From NCBI RefSeq assembly GCF_900188185.1, contig NZ_FZPA01000011.1, positions 1-64,000 of the forward strand: a stretch of 64,000 nt of DNA, in the 5' to 3' direction. A program made the translations under genes and the position numbers. The stretch comes from Sphingopyxis indica. Its GTDB lineage: Bacteria > Pseudomonadota > Alphaproteobacteria > Sphingomonadales > Sphingomonadaceae. Shown piece by piece: positions 26,498-39,646 of the stretch. How positions within the stretch are numbered: position 1 is the first letter of the stretch; each line of letters begins with the position of its first letter. Below the pieces are notes generated by a model. The model saw only the letters and a program-made list of their open reading frames with translations, searched no databases and was not told the DNA's origin.

Positions 26498-29400
26498 ATG
26501 CAACTTTTACGTAACAGCGGAAATGAACGCGTCATTGACCGGCTCCGGGACTGGCTTTTACCAGACTCGGCAGTTGACCTTATGTCACCCGACTTTTCGC
26601 TTTACGCGTTTGCCGAAACACACGAGCACGTGAAAAAAGCCGGACGGTGTCGTATTCTGCTTGGCTCCGACACCGCCATTGCGAGTTCCCTTTACGGCGG
26701 GCCGGGCGACATTACCGCGCGCGGCAAGCTGCAAGGTCGCTGGCTTGCCAAGATCGCCGGTGAGTGGCTGGGCAAGCACGCCGAGGTTCGCCACGTCCCG
26801 ACTACGCCACCCCAATCCATGATCGTCGTCTCGAACAACGACAATCGCCACGTCCTGACCGGCACATGCCCGTTCACGACCGAGGGCCTAGGCGTAACGC
26901 CGGGCAATCAACTTGGCCTTGTTCAAATTTCCGATACTGACACAGAGGCAGCGGCATTTGCCGACTGGTTTCAGGCAAATTGGTCAGGCGTGAAGCCGAC
27001 TGCGAGCAATCTTGCCGTGAGCCTCGCCGATGCTGCGAGCCATCGCCCGCCGTCGCTTCTGTATTTCAAGGTGCTCTTTGAGCTGTTCAAGGATTTGGGC
27101 GACGAGCTGGACGAGGAGCGGATTATCAAATCCGCGACCGGCATCCGCAACACCACCGTCTGGCAAAAGCTGTTCAAGTTTCAGCGCGACGGCGTCGTGG
27201 GGGCAATCGACAAGCTGGAGCGCATCGGCGGCTGCATCATTGCCGACAGCGTCGGCCTCGGCAAAACCTTCGAGGCGCTGGCTGTCATCAAATATTACGA
27301 GCTGCGCAATGACCGCGTTCTGGTCCTGTGCCCCAAGCGGCTGCGCGACAACTGGACGCTCTATAAGGCCAATGATCGGCGCAATATCCTTGCATCCGAC
27401 CGCTTCAACTATGACGTGCTCAATCACACCGACCTGTCGCGGGACGGCGGCATGTCCGGCGACATCGACCTGAGCCATGTGAATTGGGGCAACTACGATC
27501 TTGTCGTGATCGACGAGTCCCACAACTTCCGCAACAAGGCGACCCATAAAGACCGCGACACCCGTTACGACCATTTGATGAAGCGGATCATCAAAGCGGG
27601 CGTCAAAACCAAGGTGCTCATGTTGTCGGCTACACCGGTCAACAACCGCCTTGCCGACCTCAAGAACCAGATCGCCTTTATGACCGAGGGCAATGACCTC
27701 GCGCTTATGGGACATGGCATCCAGAGCATTGAAGCGACCATCCGCAAGGCGCAGACGCAGTTCAACCGCTGGCTCGACCTGCCCGAAGCCGACCGCCGCC
27801 CGGCGCGGCTGATGGACATGCTCGGCTTTGATTACTTCAAATTGCTCGACCTGCTGACCATCGCCCGGTCGCGCAAACACGTCCAACGCTATTACGGCAC
27901 CGAGGAAACCGGCCAGTTCCCCGAGCGGCTGCGCCCCGTCAATATCAAGGCCGACGTGGACTTAGCCGGAGAGTTCCGGCCCATCCGCGAGATCAACAAC
28001 GAAATCCGCCGCCTCACACTCGCCGCCTACGCGCCGCTGCGCTATGTCCTGCCCCACAAGCAGGCCGTCTATGACGAAAAATACAGCACCAAGATCAGGG
28101 GCGGAGAGAGCTTCTTCCGGCAGGTGGACCGCGAGGAAAGCCTGATCCACCTGTTGCGCGTCAATATTCTCAAGCGCATGGAAAGCTCGGTTGCGTCCTT
28201 CGCGCTCACCATCAAGCGTCAGCTTGCCGACGTGAACGCGCTTTTGGCGAAGATCGACGCCCACGATGAAAGCGTGGATGAGGTTTCCATCGACGATGTC
28301 GATATAGACGATCCCGCTTTCGAGGCCCTGTTGATCGGGCGCAAGGTCAAGGTGTTGCTGCATGACGTGGACCGTGTCCGCTGGCGGCAGGATTTGATCG
28401 AGGACCGCAACCGCCTTGCCACCCTGCTATCCGCAGCGCAGGCCGTCACGCCGGAGCGCGACGCCAAGCTCGCCGCCTTGCGCGATGTGATCGCCAGCAA
28501 GATCGCCACGCCGATCAACGGCGACAACCGCAAAATCCTGCTGTTCACGGCCTTCGCGGACACGGCGGACTATCTTTACGCCCAGCTTGGCGCTTGGGCG
28601 AAGAACGAGCTTGGCCTTGAAACCGCTGTCGTCAGCGGCACCGGCGCGAACAAGACGACGCTGAGCGGGCTGCGCGGTGACATGAGTTCGATCCTCTCCG
28701 CTTTCTCGCCGCGCTCGAAAGAGCGCCCTGAGGAAATGAATGCCGAGGGCCAGATCGATCTGCTCATTGCCACCGATTGCATTTCCGAAGGCCAGAACCT
28801 TCAGGACTGCGATTTCCTCACCAATTACGATATTCACTGGAACCCCGTGCGGATCATCCAGAGGTTCGGGCGCATCGACCGTATCGGCTCGACCAACACC
28901 CGCATCCAGTTGGTCAATTTCTGGCCCAACATGGAGCTGGACGAATATCTCGACCTCGAATCCCGCGTGAGCGGGCGCATGGTGCTGCTCGACGTGTCCG
29001 CGACCGGCGAGGAAAACGTCATCGAGTTTCAGGCCGGAAACCAGATGAACGACCTCGAATATCGTCGCGCCCAACTGCAAAAATTGCAGGACGCAGTGAT
29101 CGACCTTGAAGACTTGTCGAGTGGCGTTTCCATCGCCGACCTCACCCTCAACGATTTCCGCATCGACCTCGCCGGATATATGCGCGAACACCGCGAGCGG
29201 CTGGAAAGCCTGCCGCCCGGCACCTATGCCGTGGTGCCCGCGCCCGACACAGACGCGCCCGAAAATGACCTGCCCCCCGGCGCTATTTTCTGCCTGCGCG
29301 CTGTCGGCGAGGCGGCGGAAAGCGCCGCCGAACCCGGCTATCCTCTAAGCCCCAATTTCGTCGTCCATGTCGGCGACGAGGGCGATGTGCTGTTGCCCTA

Positions 29401-29698
29401 TACTCAGGCCAAGCAGGTGCTCGACCGGCTCAAGAAGGCAGCCATCGGGCGCGACCTGCCCGATGCCGAAGCCTGCGCGCGCTTCGACAAGGCCACCCGA
29501 TACGGGCGCGACATGGAGGATTATCAGACGCTGCTGGCGCGAGCTGTCGCCTCCATCGCTGGCAAAAGCGAGGAGCGTGCCGTTGCCAGCCTGTTCAGCC
29601 CCGGCGGCACCCACGCCCTGAAAGGCGAGTTTGCCGGTATCAACGACTTCGAGGTTGTCGCCTTTCTTGTCATCCTGCCCGAAGCGGAGGCCGCATGA
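26498..29698 (+). CDS. SNF2-type helicase with degenerate PLD-like N-terminus
   Basis: A 1066-residue superfamily 2 ATPase. Residues 1-165 resemble the phospholipase D-like nuclease domain that often precedes such helicases. The region that normally carries HxK reads PPQSMIVVSN, so the catalytic His and Lys seem lost, while the later TGTCPFTTEGLG matches the GSxNFT part. Helicase motifs follow: VGLGKT (near 252), VVIDESHNF (near 338), MLSATPVNN (near 375) and IQRFGRIDRIGS (near 788). The last 200 residues are unassigned. It opens a block of seven same-strand genes. By analogy with other defence helicases it may translocate on foreign DNA. The ribosome-binding site (GGATGA) is weak. Confidence 0.85.
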   Translation: MQLLRNSGNERVIDRLRDWLLPDSAVDLMSPDFSLYAFAETHEHVKKAGRCRILLGSDTAIASSLYGGPGDITARGKLQGRWLAKIAGEWLGKHAEVRHVPTTPPQSMIVVSNNDNRHVLTGTCPFTTEGLGVTPGNQLGLVQISDTDTEAAAFADWFQANWSGVKPTASNLAVSLADAASHRPPSLLYFKVLFELFKDLGDELDEERIIKSATGIRNTTVWQKLFKFQRDGVVGAIDKLERIGGCIIADSVGLGKTFEALAVIKYYELRNDRVLVLCPKRLRDNWTLYKANDRRNILASDRFNYDVLNHTDLSRDGGMSGDIDLSHVNWGNYDLVVIDESHNFRNKATHKDRDTRYDHLMKRIIKAGVKTKVLMLSATPVNNRLADLKNQIAFMTEGNDLALMGHGIQSIEATIRKAQTQFNRWLDLPEADRRPARLMDMLGFDYFKLLDLLTIARSRKHVQRYYGTEETGQFPERLRPVNIKADVDLAGEFRPIREINNEIRRLTLAAYAPLRYVLPHKQAVYDEKYSTKIRGGESFFRQVDREESLIHLLRVNILKRMESSVASFALTIKRQLADVNALLAKIDAHDESVDEVSIDDVDIDDPAFEALLIGRKVKVLLHDVDRVRWRQDLIEDRNRLATLLSAAQAVTPERDAKLAALRDVIASKIATPINGDNRKILLFTAFADTADYLYAQLGAWAKNELGLETAVVSGTGANKTTLSGLRGDMSSILSAFSPRSKERPEEMNAEGQIDLLIATDCISEGQNLQDCDFLTNYDIHWNPVRIIQRFGRIDRIGSTNTRIQLVNFWPNMELDEYLDLESRVSGRMVLLDVSATGEENVIEFQAGNQMNDLEYRRAQLQKLQDAVIDLEDLSSGVSIADLTLNDFRIDLAGYMREHRERLESLPPGTYAVVPAPDTDAPENDLPPGAIFCLRAVGEAAESAAEPGYPLSPNFVVHVGDEGDVLLPYTQAKQVLDRLKKAAIGRDLPDAEACARFDKATRYGRDMEDYQTLLARAVASIAGKSEERAVASLFSPGGTHALKGEFAGINDFEVVAFLVILPEAEAA

Positions 29699-30465
29699 CG
29701 GCTGGCGCGGACTTTCTCGCCATCGTCAGCGCGCTGGGGCTGCCGCCCGGCGCGCGTGTCGATTCCCGCATCCCCAAGAAATTGCTGATCGAGCAGGGTG
29801 CGCCGACCGCCGCCGACAAGCGCGCCATTCAGGACGGCATCGACGAGCTGCAATGGTTCGCCGCGTGCAAGCCCACCACCATTGGCGTGCCGACATTCGC
29901 CGACGATACCCGCGAATATCTTGAGATCGCCGTTCTCGGCTGCGCTTTCCGCTCCGGTGCGAAGGCATCGCGGCTGATCGAGCTGATCCACCGCGCCATT
30001 CCCTATCCGGTGCTGCTTGTCACCGCCGACGAGAGCGGCCTCGCTGTATCGGCGGCGCACAAGCGCCATGCGCAGAACGAGGCTGGCCGCACCGTGATCG
30101 AGCAGGTTATCGTGGCCAGCGGTCTGCGGGCCGACGCCGTGGATTCCGTGCAAGTTGCGTTCCTGAAAAGCCTTGCGCTGGCGCAGCAAGCGCGCACCGA
30201 CCTGTTCGCTCTTTATGCGGGCTGGATTGCCCGGATCGAGGCCGTCAACGCGGCGCGCTTGACGGGCGCGTTCGCGGCGTCCGATAATCAGGAAATCATC
30301 GACCGCCGCCGCGAGGCGCTGGACGCGCACGCGCGGCTGACTAAAGAAATCGAAGGTCTGCGCGCCAAGGCCAGGCGCGAGAAGCAGCTCAGCCGCCGCG
30401 TGGACCTCAACCTCGAAATCCAACGGCGCGAGACCGACCTCGCCGCCTATGCGAACCATCTGTGA
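29695..30465 (+). CDS. DUF4391 protein
   Basis: A 256-residue soluble protein whose N-terminal two thirds match the DUF4391 pattern (DSRIPKKLLIEQGAPTAADKR, LQWFAACKPTTIGVP and LIHRAIPYPVLLV). The last 60 residues are a charged coiled coil. Its ATG overlaps the helicase stop (ATGA). In other genomes this family commonly sits between a helicase and a type III methyltransferase, but its biochemical role is not known to me. The coiled coil suggests a bridging subunit. It is probably needed in fixed ratio with the helicase, given the coupled translation. Confidence 0.82.
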   Translation: MTAGADFLAIVSALGLPPGARVDSRIPKKLLIEQGAPTAADKRAIQDGIDELQWFAACKPTTIGVPTFADDTREYLEIAVLGCAFRSGAKASRLIELIHRAIPYPVLLVTADESGLAVSAAHKRHAQNEAGRTVIEQVIVASGLRADAVDSVQVAFLKSLALAQQARTDLFALYAGWIARIEAVNAARLTGAFAASDNQEIIDRRREALDAHARLTKEIEGLRAKARREKQLSRRVDLNLEIQRRETDLAAYANHL

Positions 30466-30488
30466 CTCTTAGGGAGAAGCCGTCTTTC

Positions 30489-32471
30489 ATGCCTGAAATC
30501 AAAAAACTCGTTCTGGATGACCCTGCCACCAAGAGCGCCGACATCGTGACCGGGAACGTCGAGGCCCTGAAAGACCTGTTCCCCGAAGCCTTCGAGGAAG
30601 GGAAGATCGACTTCGATGTGCTCCGGCAACTGCTGGGCGCTGCCGTCGATGAAAAGGACGAGAAATACGGGCTGAACTGGCACGGCAAGCGCAAGGCGCG
30701 GCAGATCGCGCTGACGCCGTCCACCGGCACGCTGTTGCCGTGCCCGGATGAGAGTGTCGATTGGGATACGACGCAGAACCTGATGATCGAGGGCGACAAC
30801 CTTGAGGTGCTCAAGCTCTTGCAGAAGAGCTACGCGGGCAAGGTTAAGCTCATCTACATCGACCCTCCGTATAATACAGGCAAGGAATTTATTTATCCTG
30901 ATCGCTTTCAGGACAATTTAGAGACTTACCTTCAATACACTGGCCAGAAGGGTGGGGATGGTTTTCGGATAACAAGCAACACCGAGAGTCACGGACGATT
31001 TCATACCAACTGGCTGAACATGATTTACCCGCGCTTAAAGTTGTCGCGAGCATTACTTTCGGACGATGGAGTTATTGCGATTAGCGTTGATGAGAACGAA
31101 ATCGACAGGCTCCGAGCGGTGATGGCTGAAATATTCGGAGAAGAAAATTTCGCTGCGCAAATCAGTGTCCAAAGCAATCCCCGTGGTCGGCAGTCTGATA
31201 CGTTCTTTGCCACTGTTCATGAATATCTCCTAGTTTACGCTAGGAGCAGAGAAAGTGGCATTATCGGAGGCGAGGCTCTGACCGATGCACAGCGCTCCGA
31301 GTTTAAGTATTCCGATCCTGACGGTCGAGCATATCGGCTCTTAGGCCTTCGCCAGCGTGGTGCTGCATCGCTCCGCAGCGACCGGCCAGATATGTATTTC
31401 CCGATCTACGTGAACTCGAAAACATCAGAAGTATCGCTTGAGCCGAAGGAGGGTTTTGACCACGAGGTTCTCCCGCGCAAATCAACTGGCGAAGATGGAC
31501 GGTGGATGTGGGGCAAAGATAAATGCACTAAAGACATCGCTCTCCTCGTTTCCAGACTGATTGAACGTCGCGGTGAATATGACCTCTTCGTCAAGGATTA
31601 TCTGGAGAAGAACGGCGAAGAACGTTCAAGAAAATTTAAGACCATATGGGATGATAAGAAGCTAAATACCCAAAATGGAACCCAAGAAGTAAAGGAGCTA
31701 CTTGGGTCAGGTGCAATGTCATTTCCAAAACCAGTCGCTTTATTGCGTGACGTGATTCAACTTGGTGCTGACCGTCACAGCTTGATACTTGACTTCTTTG
31801 CGGGGTCAGGGACGACTGGCCACGCCGTCTTTGAGGAAAACGCGAAGGACGGTGGCAGCAGAAAGTTCATCCTTGTCCAGCTTCCTGAACCGCTCGACCC
31901 CAATAACAACGAACAGAAGGTGGCGGTCCAGCTTTGTGACACGCTTGGGAAGCCGCGCTCTATCGCGGAGGTGACGAAGGAACGTCTGCGGAGAGCTGCC
32001 AAGAAAGTTAGAGGCGATTTTCCTCTCTTCAAAGGCGACTTAGGATTCAGGAATTACAAGCTCGCTCAATCGAACATAGTCCCGTGGGAACCGGAGCCGA
32101 CCGATCTTGAAGGCAGTTTGCTCGCCAACGCCGAGCATCTTGTGCCGGGCCGCACCGAACTGGACGTGCTCTATGAGCTGCTGCTCAAGTTGGGCCTCGA
32201 TCTGTGCGTTCCCATCGAGAAGAAAGACATTGCCGGAAAGGCCGTCCATTCTATCGGCGGCGGCGCGTTGATCGTTTGTCTGTCAGATGGCCTGACCAAG
32301 GACAGCGTCGAAACCGTCGCCAACGGCATCGTCGCATGGCGGAAGGAGCTTGCCCCTGCCGTCGATACCCGTGTCGTGTTCAAGGATGCTGGCTTCGCCG
32401 ATGACGTTGCCAAAGCCAATATGGCCGCGATCCTCAATCAGAATGGCATCCTCGACGTGAGGAGCCTGTAA
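30489..32471 (+). CDS. mod: Type III DNA methyltransferase (Mod)
   Basis: A 660-residue beta-class adenine (or N4-cytosine) methyltransferase. The catalytic motif DPPYNTG (near residue 125) comes before the AdoMet motif FAGSGTTGH (near residue 436), the beta-class order. The region between them is the target-recognition part. Residues 1-80 are a typical Mod N-terminus. It should modify host DNA at an asymmetric site. I chose the ATG at 30489 with AGGGAG upstream; a GTG at 30462 overlapping the DUF4391 stop is an alternative. The middle of the gene (about 30860-32080) is clearly AT-richer than both ends. Confidence 0.92.
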   Translation: MPEIKKLVLDDPATKSADIVTGNVEALKDLFPEAFEEGKIDFDVLRQLLGAAVDEKDEKYGLNWHGKRKARQIALTPSTGTLLPCPDESVDWDTTQNLMIEGDNLEVLKLLQKSYAGKVKLIYIDPPYNTGKEFIYPDRFQDNLETYLQYTGQKGGDGFRITSNTESHGRFHTNWLNMIYPRLKLSRALLSDDGVIAISVDENEIDRLRAVMAEIFGEENFAAQISVQSNPRGRQSDTFFATVHEYLLVYARSRESGIIGGEALTDAQRSEFKYSDPDGRAYRLLGLRQRGAASLRSDRPDMYFPIYVNSKTSEVSLEPKEGFDHEVLPRKSTGEDGRWMWGKDKCTKDIALLVSRLIERRGEYDLFVKDYLEKNGEERSRKFKTIWDDKKLNTQNGTQEVKELLGSGAMSFPKPVALLRDVIQLGADRHSLILDFFAGSGTTGHAVFEENAKDGGSRKFILVQLPEPLDPNNNEQKVAVQLCDTLGKPRSIAEVTKERLRRAAKKVRGDFPLFKGDLGFRNYKLAQSNIVPWEPEPTDLEGSLLANAEHLVPGRTELDVLYELLLKLGLDLCVPIEKKDIAGKAVHSIGGGALIVCLSDGLTKDSVETVANGIVAWRKELAPAVDTRVVFKDAGFADDVAKANMAAILNQNGILDVRSL

Positions 32472-32980
32472 TGAGCGCGGATCGTTTCGTCACCTTTGCC
32501 TATGGCTCGAATATGCTTGCCGCACGCCTACGGGAGCGTTGCCCCTCCGCGCGCGCAATCGGCATCGCAGAATTGCCCGGCCACGAACTACGCTGGCACA
32601 AGCGGAGCAACCAAAAGTCGGGCAAGTGCGATATTGTCGCCAGCGACACTGCTTCCGTGTTTGGCGTGCTCTACGAGATCAATGCGCAGGAAAAGGGCGC
32701 GTTGGATCGCGCCGAGGGCCTTGGTGCGGGCTATGAAGAAATTGAGATCGAGGTTCTTTGCGGCAGCGAGCGAGTTAATGCAAAGGCATACAGGGCGACC
32801 AATACCGATCCCACGCTTCGCCCTTTCACTTGGTATCGCGCCTTGGTCATCGCGGGCGCGAAGGAGCATGGCTTGCCGGCGTCCTATATCGCCGGGCTGG
32901 AATCTGTGCCTGCTGATCAAGACGCCGACCGTGCCCGCCACGACACAAACATGGCGTTGATCGAAGGAGTGCAGGAATGA
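32471..32980 (+). CDS. Gamma-glutamylcyclotransferase-like protein inside the operon
   Basis: A 169-residue protein with the GGCT fold: the substrate loop YGSN at residues 11-14 and the probable catalytic Glu82 in LDRAEGLGAGYEE. Family members cyclise gamma-glutamyl groups of glutathione or related peptides to 5-oxoproline. The ATG overlaps the mod stop (TAATG) and its own stop overlaps the res start (ATGA), so it is locked between the two restriction-modification subunits. Its role there is unknown. It may act on a peptide or nucleotide conjugate, or serve as a fold-only partner. The active-site residues are kept, which favours enzymatic function. Confidence 0.87.
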   Translation: MSADRFVTFAYGSNMLAARLRERCPSARAIGIAELPGHELRWHKRSNQKSGKCDIVASDTASVFGVLYEINAQEKGALDRAEGLGAGYEEIEIEVLCGSERVNAKAYRATNTDPTLRPFTWYRALVIAGAKEHGLPASYIAGLESVPADQDADRARHDTNMALIEGVQE

Positions 32981-35958
32981 AACTGCATTTCGAGCCGGAC
33001 CTCGATTACCAGCACACCGCCATCGAAGCGGTCTGCGACCTGTTTCGCGGACAGGAGATCAATCGCACCGAGTTTACCGTCACCCGTCAAGCCGCCGGTG
33101 GCGCGCAACAGGAGCTTGGCCTTGTCGAAAACGCCCTAGGCATCGGCAACCGGCTGACCCTGCTGGACGATGAGATTATCTCCAACCTCAACGAGATTCA
33201 GCTTCGCAATGGCCTGCCGCCATCCGCCAGCCTCGCGTCCGGCGACTTCACCGTGGAGATGGAGACGGGCACCGGCAAAACCTATGTCTATCTGCGCACC
33301 ATCTTTGAGATGAACAAACGCTTCGGCTTCACCAAATTCGTGATCGTGGTGCCGTCCGTCGCCATCAAGGAAGGCGTCTACAAGACTCTCCAGATCACCG
33401 AGGACCATTTCAAGGGCCTCTATTCCGGCCAGCCCTTCGATTATTTCCTCTACGATTCATCGAAGCTGGGGCAGGTGCGCAATTTCGCCACCAGCCCGAC
33501 CATTCAGATCATGGTCGTGACCGTTGGCGCGATCAACAAGAAGGACGTGAACAACCTCTACAAGGACAGCGAGAAAACGGGGGGCGAAGCGCCCATCGAC
33601 CTGATCCGCGCCACGCGCCCCGTCATTATCGTGGACGAACCGCAAAGCGTGGACGGCGGCCTTGAAGGCCGGGGCAAGCAGGCCCTTGGCGAAATGCACC
33701 CGCTTTGCACGCTACGCTATTCGGCGACCCATGCGGACAAGCACCACATGGTTTACCGGCTGGACGCGGTGGACGCCTACGAGCGCAAGCTGGTCAAGCA
33801 GATCGAAGTGGCCTCGCTCGAAGTCGAGGGCGGGCACAACAAAGCCTATCTGCGTTTCCTCTCCGCCAGCAACAAGGGCGGCGCCGTGACCGCCAAGGTC
33901 GAGATCGACGTGCAGCAGGGCGGGCAGGTTCGCCGAAAGGAAGTCAATGTGCAGGACGGTGACGACCTTGAGGACACCACGGGCCGCGCCATCTACAAGG
34001 ATTGCCGCATCGGCGAAATCCGCGTAGCGGGCGGCGACTCCCTGCTCGAAGTGAAAACCGCAGGGTCGGAATCCTTCCTTGCCGTAGGACAGGCCATCGG
34101 CGACGTGAACGCCGACGCCGTCCGGCGGTTGATGATCCGCCGCACCATCACCGAGCACCTAGAGAAGGAACGCCGCCTTGCTCCGCTGGGGGTCAAGGTG
34201 CTCAGCCTGTTCTTCATCGACGCCGTGGAGCACTATCGGTCCTACGACGAGGACGGCAACGCCGTGAAAGGCAAATACGCGACGATCTTCGAGGAAGAAT
34301 ATCGCCGCGCCGCCAAGCTCCCCGAATATGCCAGCCTGTTCAAGGAAGTGGACCTCGCCACCGACGCAGAGGAGGTCCACGACGGCTATTTCTCCATCGA
34401 CAAGAACAAGCGATGGACAGACACCGCCGAGAACAATCAGGCCAACCGCGACAGCGCCGAACGCGCCTACAACCTCATTATGAAGGACAAGGAGAAGCTC
34501 TTGAGCTTCGATACGAAGCTCAAGTTCATCTTCTCCCACTCCGCGCTGAAAGAGGGTTGGGACAATCCCAACGTGTTCCAGATTTGCGCGCTGCGCGAAA
34601 TCGGCACCGAGCGCGAACGCCGCCAGACCATCGGGCGCGGCCTGCGCCTTTGCGTCAACCAGCAGGGCGAACGCCTGCGCGGCTTCGAGATCAACACCCT
34701 CACAGTGATCGCCACCGAGAGCTACGAAGCCTTCGCCGAAAATCTCCAGAAGGAGATCGAGGCCGATACCGGAATCCGTTTCGGCATTGTCGAGAAACAC
34801 CAGTTCGCGGCCATACCCGTCCAGCAGGAGGACGGCACCCTCACCATGCTGGGATTCGAGGAATCCGCTGCGATCCACGAATATCTCAAGAACGCCGACT
34901 TCATCGACGCCAAGGGCAAGGTGCAGGACAAGCTGCGCACGGTCCTGAAAGAGGGGACACTGACGCTCCCCGACGAACATGCCGCGCTCCTTCCGCAGAT
35001 CAAGGAAGTCCTGCGTAAGATCGCGGGTAGGCTCGACATCAAAAACGCCGACGACCGCAAGCCAGTGCGTGTGCGCAAGGAAGTCCTGCATAGCACCGAG
35101 TTTCAGGCGCTATGGGATCGCATCAAGCACCAGACGACCTATCGCGTTCACTTCGACAACGCCAAGCTGATCGAGGATTGCACCAACGCTATTTCCAATG
35201 CGCCGCCGATCACCAAGGCGAAGGCCGTCATCCGCAAGGCTGACCTTGCCATCGGCCAGGGCGGCGTGATCGCCACCGAAACCGCGACCTCCGGCCCCGT
35301 CACCATCGAGGAGGGCGATATTGTTCTCCCCGACGTGCTGACCGATTTGCAGGACCGCACGCACCTGACGCGCCGCAGCCTTGTCACTATCCTGACTGAC
35401 AGCGGCAGGCTTGGCGATTTCAAGCGCAATCCCCAAGCCTTCATCGAGCTAGCGGCGGAAACCATCAACCGCACCAAGCGGCTCGCACTCGTGGACGGCA
35501 TCAAATACCAGCGGATCGGCGGCGATCATTTCTACGCGCAGGAGCTGTTCGAGCAGGAGGAGCTGACCGGCTACCTGAAGAATATGCTTCAGGATGCGCA
35601 GAAATCCGTTTTCGAGCACGTCATCTATGATTCCGGCGGCGTCGAGCGCACCTTTGCCGAACAGCTCGAAAAGAACGAAGCGGTAAAGGTTTACGCCAAG
35701 CTGCCCGGCTGGTTCAAAGTCCCCACGCCGCTCGGCACCTACAATCCCGATTGGGCGGTGCTGGTGCAGGTGGACGGGGAAGAACGTCTTTATTTCGTGG
35801 TCGAAACCAAGGGCAGCCTGTTTACCGACGACCTGCGCGACAACGAGGCCGCGAAGATTGCCTGCGGCGAAGCGCACTTTAAGGCGCTCGCGGTCGGCGA
35901 AAATCCGGCGCGCTACGTCAAGGCGACCAAGCTGGACGACCTCATGGAGCATTGCTGA
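32977..35958 (+). CDS. res: Type III restriction subunit (Res)
   Basis: A 993-residue helicase-nuclease. Motif I is ETGTGKTYV (near residue 97), motif II IIVDEPQSV (near 219), motif III RYSATH, and motif VI QTIGRGLRL (near 550). The C-terminal PD-(D/E)xK nuclease has NPDWAV (near 921) and VVETKG (near 942). With Mod it should form the type III complex that cuts unmodified DNA. All catalytic motifs are intact. The start overlaps the GGCT-like gene. Confidence 0.93.
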   Translation: MKLHFEPDLDYQHTAIEAVCDLFRGQEINRTEFTVTRQAAGGAQQELGLVENALGIGNRLTLLDDEIISNLNEIQLRNGLPPSASLASGDFTVEMETGTGKTYVYLRTIFEMNKRFGFTKFVIVVPSVAIKEGVYKTLQITEDHFKGLYSGQPFDYFLYDSSKLGQVRNFATSPTIQIMVVTVGAINKKDVNNLYKDSEKTGGEAPIDLIRATRPVIIVDEPQSVDGGLEGRGKQALGEMHPLCTLRYSATHADKHHMVYRLDAVDAYERKLVKQIEVASLEVEGGHNKAYLRFLSASNKGGAVTAKVEIDVQQGGQVRRKEVNVQDGDDLEDTTGRAIYKDCRIGEIRVAGGDSLLEVKTAGSESFLAVGQAIGDVNADAVRRLMIRRTITEHLEKERRLAPLGVKVLSLFFIDAVEHYRSYDEDGNAVKGKYATIFEEEYRRAAKLPEYASLFKEVDLATDAEEVHDGYFSIDKNKRWTDTAENNQANRDSAERAYNLIMKDKEKLLSFDTKLKFIFSHSALKEGWDNPNVFQICALREIGTERERRQTIGRGLRLCVNQQGERLRGFEINTLTVIATESYEAFAENLQKEIEADTGIRFGIVEKHQFAAIPVQQEDGTLTMLGFEESAAIHEYLKNADFIDAKGKVQDKLRTVLKEGTLTLPDEHAALLPQIKEVLRKIAGRLDIKNADDRKPVRVRKEVLHSTEFQALWDRIKHQTTYRVHFDNAKLIEDCTNAISNAPPITKAKAVIRKADLAIGQGGVIATETATSGPVTIEEGDIVLPDVLTDLQDRTHLTRRSLVTILTDSGRLGDFKRNPQAFIELAAETINRTKRLALVDGIKYQRIGGDHFYAQELFEQEELTGYLKNMLQDAQKSVFEHVIYDSGGVERTFAEQLEKNEAVKVYAKLPGWFKVPTPLGTYNPDWAVLVQVDGEERLYFVVETKGSLFTDDLRDNEAAKIACGEAHFKALAVGENPARYVKATKLDDLMEHC

Positions 35959-36006: not shown

Positions 36007-36624
36007 ATGGAACTGCTAGACCTCGAAAAGGCGCGGCTTTTCCTTGTGTTGGCCGTGCCGGGCATCGTGATACTGTATATGCGGAGCCAGTTTCTGACAG
36101 GGCGGATGCTCTCCTTGATGGAGGGGTTGATCGCTTACGTCACGGTCTCACTGGTGTATTATGCCCTCGTATTGCCAGCCTTTGCGTGGCTTGAGCAACG
36201 CACGGGCATCGCCGCTGCGGCGCTCTGGTTCCTGATCGTTCTAGCCGGTCCCGCCATCGTCGGGGCTTTGCTGGGCCTGAATGTCCGTAAAGGCTGGTCA
36301 CAAAAGGTGCTGAGGCGACTTGGCATCAGCACTGTCCATCCGATCAGCGCCGCATGGGATTGGCGGTTTTCGGGTGGCGAAGCCTGTTGGGTGCTGGCGA
36401 TCCTGAAGAACGGCACCCGATGGGCCGGTTATCTCGGCACCAATTCCTTCATGTCGTCCGACCCGTCAGAACGCGACATCTATATCCAGCAAGTTTACGA
36501 GTTGGATTCCAAGAGCCAGTGGACGCCCCGCGACAGCAGCGTTTGGATCGCCCACGGCGAAATTCAGTCGCTGGAGTTCTGGCCGGACGGGAAAACCCAA
36601 CAACAGGAGAAAGCACAACCATGA
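36007..36624 (+). CDS. DUF6338 membrane protein
   Basis: A 205-residue protein with three membrane segments in the first 95 residues (LFLVLAVPGIVILYM, LIAYVTVSLVYYALVLPAFAW and LWFLIVLAGPAIVGALLGL) and a cytoplasmic domain of about 110 residues. That domain has WDWRFSGGEACWVLAILKNGTRWAGYLG, an SH3-like beta region typical of DUF6338. GGGAGG lies before the ATG, 48 nt after the res stop. Its stop overlaps the next gene. A membrane effector or sensor for the defence block is possible but unproven. Confidence 0.78.
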   Translation: MELLDLEKARLFLVLAVPGIVILYMRSQFLTGRMLSLMEGLIAYVTVSLVYYALVLPAFAWLEQRTGIAAAALWFLIVLAGPAIVGALLGLNVRKGWSQKVLRRLGISTVHPISAAWDWRFSGGEACWVLAILKNGTRWAGYLGTNSFMSSDPSERDIYIQQVYELDSKSQWTPRDSSVWIAHGEIQSLEFWPDGKTQQQEKAQP

Positions 36625-38731: not shown

Positions 38732-39646
38732 ATGACCAAAACAACCACCAAGCTAGACCCACACACCAGCATCACCGACCGGATTCTTGCCGAACTGGAA
38801 CAAGGCACACGCCCTTGGTTGAAACCGTGGAGCGGGGGCGACATGGCGACATCGGGCGCGACCCGCCCGCTGCGTGCCACCGGCCAGCCATATCGCGGCA
38901 TCAATGTTCTGTTGCTGTGGATCGAGGCGCAGGCATCGGGCTTTGTAAGCCCGTCATGGATGACATACCGCCAAGCCCAAGCCTTTGGCGCGCAGGTGCG
39001 CAAAGGCGAACGGGGCGCAACCATTGTCTATTACGGCGACAGCAACAAGACCGTGCGCGACGAGAACAGCGGAGAGGACAACGAACACCGATTCCGTTTC
39101 CTGAAAAGCTATACCGTGTTCAATGTGGCGCAGATCGACGGGCTTCCCGAGCGGTTTCACTATATCCCCGAACCCGCGCCAGAGGTGCAGCGCATTGCCG
39201 CTGCCGAGGCATTCTTTGATCGCATCCCCGCCACCGTGAACCACGGCGGCGACCGCGCCTATTATATCCCGTCAGCCGACCGCATCCAGCTACCGCCCTT
39301 TGCGGCTTTCCATGACGCTCACGGCTATTACACCACCAGAGGCCATGAAACCGTCCATTGGACGAACCACAAGAGCCGCCTTGATCGCTCATTCGGACGC
39401 GAGAAATGGGGCGATGAAGGTTACGCCCGCGAGGAACTGGTCGCCGAACTTGGCGCAGCCTTCCTTGCCGCCGACCTTGGCTTGTCGATTGAGCCGCGCC
39501 CCGACCATGCCAGCTATCTCGCAAGCTGGATTAGGGTCTTGCAGAACGACACCCGCGCCATCGTGCAAGCCGCTGCGCACGCGGAACGTGCCGTTGCATA
39601 TCTTCACCAACTGGCGAACCCCGACGAAGTGAGGGAGGCGGCTTGA
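38732..39646 (+). CDS. ardC: ArdC-type antirestriction protein
   Basis: A 304-residue protein with an N-terminal ssDNA-binding DUF1738 domain (ITDRILAELEQGTRPWLKPW, with TGQPYRGINVLLLW and FVSPSWMTYRQA). The C-terminal zincin-like metallopeptidase domain carries HETVHWTNHKSRLDR (HExxH). ArdC proteins protect incoming single-stranded plasmid DNA from host restriction during conjugation. AAAAGGAG precedes the ATG. Being the last gene of the element, it would enter early or late depending on the nick strand. A hairpin terminator follows. Confidence 0.92.
   Translation: MTKTTTKLDPHTSITDRILAELEQGTRPWLKPWSGGDMATSGATRPLRATGQPYRGINVLLLWIEAQASGFVSPSWMTYRQAQAFGAQVRKGERGATIVYYGDSNKTVRDENSGEDNEHRFRFLKSYTVFNVAQIDGLPERFHYIPEPAPEVQRIAAAEAFFDRIPATVNHGGDRAYYIPSADRIQLPPFAAFHDAHGYYTTRGHETVHWTNHKSRLDRSFGREKWGDEGYAREELVAELGAAFLAADLGLSIEPRPDHASYLASWIRVLQNDTRAIVQAAAHAERAVAYLHQLANPDEVREAA

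Follow-up and report, generated by a model that had tools for sequence, protein, structure and literature searches.

In the first 64,000 nucleotides (nt) of contig NZ_FZPA01000011.1 of Sphingopyxis indica (assembly GCF_900188185.1), the stretch analyzed here and referred to as the window, a gene of the gamma-glutamylcyclotransferase (GGCT) type lies between the modification gene (mod) and the restriction gene (res) of a Type III restriction-modification (R-M) operon. We hold with moderate confidence that this gene is an accessory gene of the Type III system, either a guardian or an effector comparable to prrC, and that its product keeps GGCT chemistry. The window gene combines its place with a coupled junction geometry, purifying selection, and an intact GGCT-type active site, while many of the families found at the same place in related operons (the mod-res slot) are known as toxins or nucleases. 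Because the contents of this slot are of guardian and defence kinds, an accessory defence role is the best guess for the GGCT, and an add-on defence part is more likely than a metabolic stray.

The window gene and its product

The GGCT gene occupies positions 32471..32980 of the + strand, an open reading frame of 169 amino acids (aa) running from ATG to TGA and assigned by Pfam. Its coordinates agree with the overlaps described in an earlier sequence-only reading of the window: base 32471 is common to the mod stop codon TAA and the GGCT start codon ATG (1-nt overlap), and the GGCT stop codon shares four nucleotides, ATGA, with the res ATG at 32977-32980. Both starts are preceded by Shine-Dalgarno stretches on the + strand that are themselves coding sequence, GAGGAG for the GGCT within the 3' end of mod (32453..32463) and AAGGAG for res within the 3' end of the GGCT gene (32962..32976), and the predicted duplexes are good (-8.5 and -8.3 kcal/mol, respectively). 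The window copy is the sole AIG2_2 gene in the host genome (1/1 match), and the window Res is likewise the only Res of its kind there.

The protein matches Pfam AIG2_2 (1.8e-16, 60.8 bits against a cut-off of 27) and GGACT (9.3e-9, 36.3 bits against a cut-off of 22.8), its best solved relatives by sequence are structures of human GGCT (E 3e-15), and no model in PADLOC or NCBIfam matches it. An AF2 model built from a 22-row alignment (predicted local distance difference test score 94.0, predicted template modelling (TM) score 0.89) superimposes in Foldseek on human GGCT with TM scores of 0.82-0.87, compared with about 0.5 for ChaC2 and GGACT, and the predicted fold is thus of the GGCT type rather than the ChaC or GGACT type. 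With the human enzyme (2pn7, 2i5t, 2rbh, 3cry) the window protein shares this predicted fold, the YGSN loop (residues 11-14), and the catalytic glutamate; it differs in that identity is about 30% and that the gene is bacterial and encoded within a restriction operon. In the alignment, Glu82 corresponds to human GGCT Glu98, a position counted by hand, at which chain 3cry carries Gln. The earlier description of the YGSN loop and Glu82 as intact therefore holds, and both are invariant in all 11 slot copies, i.e. the window and the ten loci described below.

The mod-res slot in related operons

Of 57 pattern matches obtained by scanning species-genome contigs with the GGCT protein, 22 were relatives, and ten of these (L001-L010) lie between mod and res. 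These ten are exactly the relatives at 57% identity or above (57-80%); the remaining 12 have no Mod or Res of this kind within the examined stretch. Absence or random placement in close relatives, which the sequence-only reading had named as what would count against it, is thus not the pattern of this GGCT lineage, since the ten closest of the 22 all sit between mod and res. The loci belong to Sphingomonadales, Rhizobiales/Hyphomicrobiales, Rhodospirillales, and Rhodobacterales, together with two bins named to phylum only. The GGCT ATG falls on the last base of mod in eight of the ten, the other two (L007, L008) using a GTG start 4 nt after mod, and the 4-nt overlap with res recurs in nine. 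The exception is Gemmobacter aquaticus (L009, 7998-11564), in which a single 1188-aa frame encodes the GGCT and, C-terminal to it, Res, and in which the res Shine-Dalgarno stretch is the weakest of the 11 (-3.0 versus -5.8 to -12.3). Because the gene takes the same place in ten other loci and has a ratio of nonsynonymous to synonymous change (dN/dS) of about 0.13, its placement is more than chance. A further observation in these loci is a GmrSD-type gene between DUF4391 and mod (L005:4113-6050), a second insertion point in the operon.

To avoid the bias of a scan that starts from GGCT, we also searched with Res, examining 17 regions in a set of 385 alphaproteobacterial genomes, 17 in a set of 396 from the window's own order, 8 of 152 plasmid records, and 28 IMG/VR contigs. 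Related loci were not thinned, so that counts refer to loci and not to events; seven loci were excluded from the slot count, four for lack of an upstream mod, another gene order, or a res fragment (L053, L064, L065, L066), one as truncated (L103), and two in which no mod was found (L330, L350), and an extra frame in L352 was treated as a Mod tail. Mod lies upstream of res at 63 junctions, the sole GGCT holder being L177, which is the contig of L001. None of the other 62 mod-res junctions holds a GGCT, which rejects the idea that it is part of the Type III core; the GGCT is dispensable for the core operon.

In 45 of these 62 junctions mod and res are spaced by 36 nt or less, and in the other 17 a longer stretch separates them. 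The longer stretches hold GmrSD in four (L059, L097, L102, L185), RhuM in three (L100, L333, L346), and Fic, each time behind an unnamed gene, in two (L051, L340), with single occurrences of the Schlafen-type SLFN_AlbA_2 (L057), Bro-N (L348), a TIR-domain gene on an IMG/VR contig (L342:7342-7815; TIR_2, with a weak ThsB_TIR match), and a PLDc_2 match just below its cut-off (L331); four have slot genes without a family name (L056, L327, L343, L347). In one of the latter (L327:7612-8000) the 389 nt between mod and res encode a highly basic, low-complexity segment that is in frame with Res, and in L330 (4777-11033) a helicase gene abuts res, with no mod found between them by blastp.

A 4-nt overlap on res, as seen for the GGCT, is present in 6 of the 15 non-window slot rows measured. 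An Acetobacter plasmid that lacks a GGCT has a one-base overlap of mod and res: the end of mod there reads GAGGAGCCTGTGATG directly into res, and the signal that starts the GGCT in the window starts res instead. Since slot genes of other families have like junctions, tight overlaps belong to the slot and not to the GGCT. The sequence-only reading had taken the overlaps to imply selection for joint translation of this gene; that the GGCT is kept between mod and res stands, but the overlaps do not single it out, since GmrSD, RhuM, Fic, TIR, and other genes occupy the slot with like junctions.

On a first Res tree nearly all GGCT carriers grouped together. Once IMG/VR rows were added, nine carriers including the window formed a clade with the GGCT-less Acetobacter plasmid, and L007 and L008 fell in another Res clade among empty and PLD-like junctions, giving at least three changes of state. 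The carriers as one clade are rejected (approximately unbiased test, p-AU 1e-77), and with two GGCT lineages a history with a single gain and a single loss, as the first Res tree had suggested, was discarded. On the GGCT tree the 11 slot copies are close, neither resolved nor rejected as one clade (p-AU 0.19). Given two GGCT lineages and a nested absence on the Res tree, we read the slot as having exchangeable contents, changed by horizontal exchange. Embedding within an R-M operon and exchangeability between operons are what mark an accessory gene of the prrC kind, and the slot survey, the Res tree, and the slot families give both for the GGCT.

Across the 11 slot copies 56 residues are invariant, including Y11, G12, S13, N14, and E82, and among 33 aligned wider relatives Y11, G12, N14, D79, E82, and others remain so. 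Seven positions (E34, W42, Y68, K75, P114, H157, M161) are invariant in slot copies and rare elsewhere (10 slot rows versus 23 others). Between the window and its nearest relative, L001, the GGCT has dN 0.128 and dS 0.98 (the dN/dS of about 0.13 given above), compared with 0.030 and 0.65 for res and 0.036 and 0.62 for mod; between L001 and L002 the values are 0.073 and 0.25 for the GGCT and 0.011 and 0.19 for res. The GGCT is under purifying selection, yet it changes faster than its operon neighbours. GGCT identity correlates with that of Res (r 0.88, 55 pairs) and of the Mod tail, i.e. its last 109 residues (r 0.90), and far less with the variable Mod middle (r 0.34) or whole Mod (0.195). As the GGCT tracks Res and the Mod tail but not the Mod middle, the block is co-inherited while target recognition changes. 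A partnership with Res rather than Mod was considered and dropped, the low whole-Mod correlation being due to the variable middle. In L001 and L002, whose Res proteins are near-identical, the Mod proteins are far apart relative to the window (93% versus 48% identity), which suggests, from sequence comparison, that target recognition was swapped.

Proposed accessory role and rival explanations

Among restriction loci, those of Type I systems are the best-known carriers of guardian genes. According to one paper (PMC12707154), prrC lies inside a Type IC locus, PrrC and PARIS are guardians that act in response to a block of restriction, and GmrSD is directed against modified phage DNA. Another (PMC3710099) proposes a multi-pronged defence formed by the DOC and RhuM genes that lie within R-M operons. 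The window resembles the PrrC, DOC, and RhuM systems in that an accessory gene sits amid the genes for modification and restriction, and RhuM and Fic occur in the mod-res slot itself. It differs from PrrC in belonging to a Type III system and in that the GGCT is not a nuclease and is not known as a toxin. Type III systems with an extra helicase share with the window a helicase gene 5' of mod and res; the window adds DUF4391 and GGCT, and the likeness is one of gene order. In the literature searched, which mostly excludes subscription journals, there was no report of a GGCT in a Type III operon or in anti-phage defence; one paper describes a Pyrococcus island that contains both cyclotransferase-type and restriction genes.

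As an accessory protein the GGCT would be synthesized in concert with Mod and Res, and may function as an active cyclotransferase at the Mod-Res complex or next to it. It would act in infection or upon a block of restriction, as guardian or effector, by releasing 5-oxoproline from a gamma-glutamyl compound or from a gamma-glutamyl group that marks a protein; arrest of growth, signalling, and removal of a mark placed by a phage are candidate outcomes. For an enzyme of the human type, the predicted substrates are gamma-glutamyl amino acids and not glutathione. With GmrSD, RhuM, Fic, TIR, Schlafen AlbA_2, or GGCT genes in such a slot, Type III systems would gain the second layer that guardians provide in Type I systems; the slot families form a ready list of candidate effectors, and a GGCT among these would bring glutathione-cycle chemistry into anti-phage defence. 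A more specific version is rather doubtful: in a general effector slot, a Res-bound GGCT might be released or switched on when restriction is blocked and drain gamma-glutamyl thiol precursors in a futile cycle, at a cost in ATP and cysteine redox, halting the infected cell. By what is generally understood of GGCT biochemistry, draining gamma-glutamyl-cysteine would cost ATP and thiols.

Several points weigh against an accessory defence role, which is a computational prediction. The gene is rare when approached through Res, being held by one of the 63 junctions besides the window and by only one of the seven other loci found in this way with Res at 71% identity or above. The fusion of GGCT and Res is known from one draft genome. 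Amino-acid change in the GGCT is about three times that in res at similar synonymous change, which could also mean weak constraint, and family members outside the slot lie mostly beside housekeeping-looking genes, among the matches listed. To our knowledge, GGCT activity is not among the known toxin activities.

One rival reading makes the GGCT a passenger: a gene of metabolism that was trapped in the operon, benefits the host or has no effect on it, plays no part in restriction, and persists because its frame is coupled to res. The core operon is complete without the gene and its absence in Acetobacter is clean, in keeping with a passenger that evolves faster than res and whose non-slot relatives have housekeeping neighbours. 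We nevertheless regard this as unlikely, as the GGCT has been kept in ten loci of at least four orders with an invariant active site, has entered the slot of two Res lineages, and shares that slot with conflict genes in other operons, and as the host genome has no second AIG2_2 gene (1/1 match) from which a duplication could be drawn. Similarly improbable in our estimate is a regulatory subunit, in which the GGCT would be a stoichiometric part of the Res complex, its pocket sensing a gamma-glutamyl metabolite and gating restriction with catalysis secondary. The fusion to the Res N terminus in L009 is what such a subunit would predict, and the seven slot-specific invariant positions could form a partner surface; however, copies outside the slot share the invariant catalytic residues with those inside it, no common docking surface is needed in a slot that takes in proteins of unrelated fold, and by inference res works without a GGCT in the many empty junctions.

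The alternative to which we give least credence makes the GGCT an eraser, removing gamma-glutamyl groups that phages with amidoligase or ATP-grasp enzymes put on host or restriction proteins. Of 49 IMG/VR records with a GGCT relative that were scanned (49 of 80 loci), 14 also carry an amidoligase (PF12224), and phage GGCT/amidoligase modules are published, although the passages in question interpret them as cell-wall modification (PMC11945000, PMC11318856). The occurrence of GGCT and ligase in the same phage genome suggests instead that the module is the phages' own, and neither Mod nor Res is known to carry such a mark. These phage modules, which include ATP-grasp genes, are like the window in placing a GGCT family member in a setting of phage-host conflict, and unlike it in that the sequences are distant and no amidoligase was found among the scanned operon proteins. 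The sequence-only reading had proposed that the enzyme may edit a small-molecule signal or a protein modification; a gamma-glutamyl ligase of either kind (amidoligase or ATP-grasp) is lacking among the scanned operon proteins. An amidoligase partner in the host was considered and dropped, as a search for PF12224 matched none of 11 genomes, a result that shows little, since its control also gave no match.

Other settings of the family and the rest of the operon

AIG2_2 was found in 34 of the 385 alphaproteobacterial genomes, and the view of it as a defence family was rejected, since its neighbours, among the matches listed, look mostly like housekeeping genes. Some members nevertheless lie in defence-like operons: between HmaB-like and HmaC-like genes with a 4-nt overlap on the next gene (L014:2006-2470), adjoining Ppl-like ATPase genes recognized by PADLOC (L013:5176-8546, L197:3164-6746), and in a run of same-strand genes that includes a Ppl-like gene some 3.8 kb away (L199:101-6759), where three neighbour genes had no family match. 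Ppl neighbours number two among the 24 GGCT genomes of the phylum sample, against 0.006 expected by a rough post hoc Poisson estimate, and L213:2944-9222 resembles these loci by eye. The Hma- and Ppl-linked copies belong to the same family as the window GGCT, but they sit on other branches of the GGCT tree and represent separate associations. Elsewhere a relative follows a DUF6119 gene (L027), and in plasmid proteins L024 and L025 the GGCT is fused to an N-terminal part that has no Pfam name (L025 scanned) and looks DUF4145-like by eye. Phage relatives are distant, at most 36% identical in annotated phages, with 97 found in IMG/VR.

The window operon runs in the order helicase, DUF4391, mod, GGCT, res, all on the + strand, its first three genes joined by 4-nt overlaps. 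The first gene (26498..29698) encodes an SNF2-type helicase (Pfam Helicase_C, SNF2-rel_dom) that matches PADLOC C3a139 over residues 201-1058 (387 bits), and from the description of that model, 'HKD+Snf2', its N-terminal part may be HKD/PLD-like. The DUF4391 gene (29695..30465; Pfam 2.1e-70) overlaps both the helicase gene and mod; in the literature searched, DUF4391 is mentioned in one paper. Mod (30462..32471) is a predicted Type III DNA methyltransferase (Pfam N6_N4_Mtase 2.3e-33; PADLOC MTase_III 677 bits), and res (32977..35958) a predicted Type III restriction subunit with helicase and endonuclease domains (Pfam ResIII, RE_endonuc 3.3e-36; PADLOC REase_III 1310 bits); the adjacency of a mod with an N6/N4 methylase and a res with these two domains assigns the system, by domain content, to Type III. 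No tRNA was found in the window. A DUF6338 gene (36007-36624) lies 48 nt past res, and an ArdC-like anti-restriction gene (ArdcN, MPTase-PolyVal; 38732-39646) 2.8 kb past it. The ArdC-like gene, a relaxase-like gene (24377), and a tyrosine-integrase-like gene (40129), the last two recognized by eye, together give the region the appearance of a mobile element.
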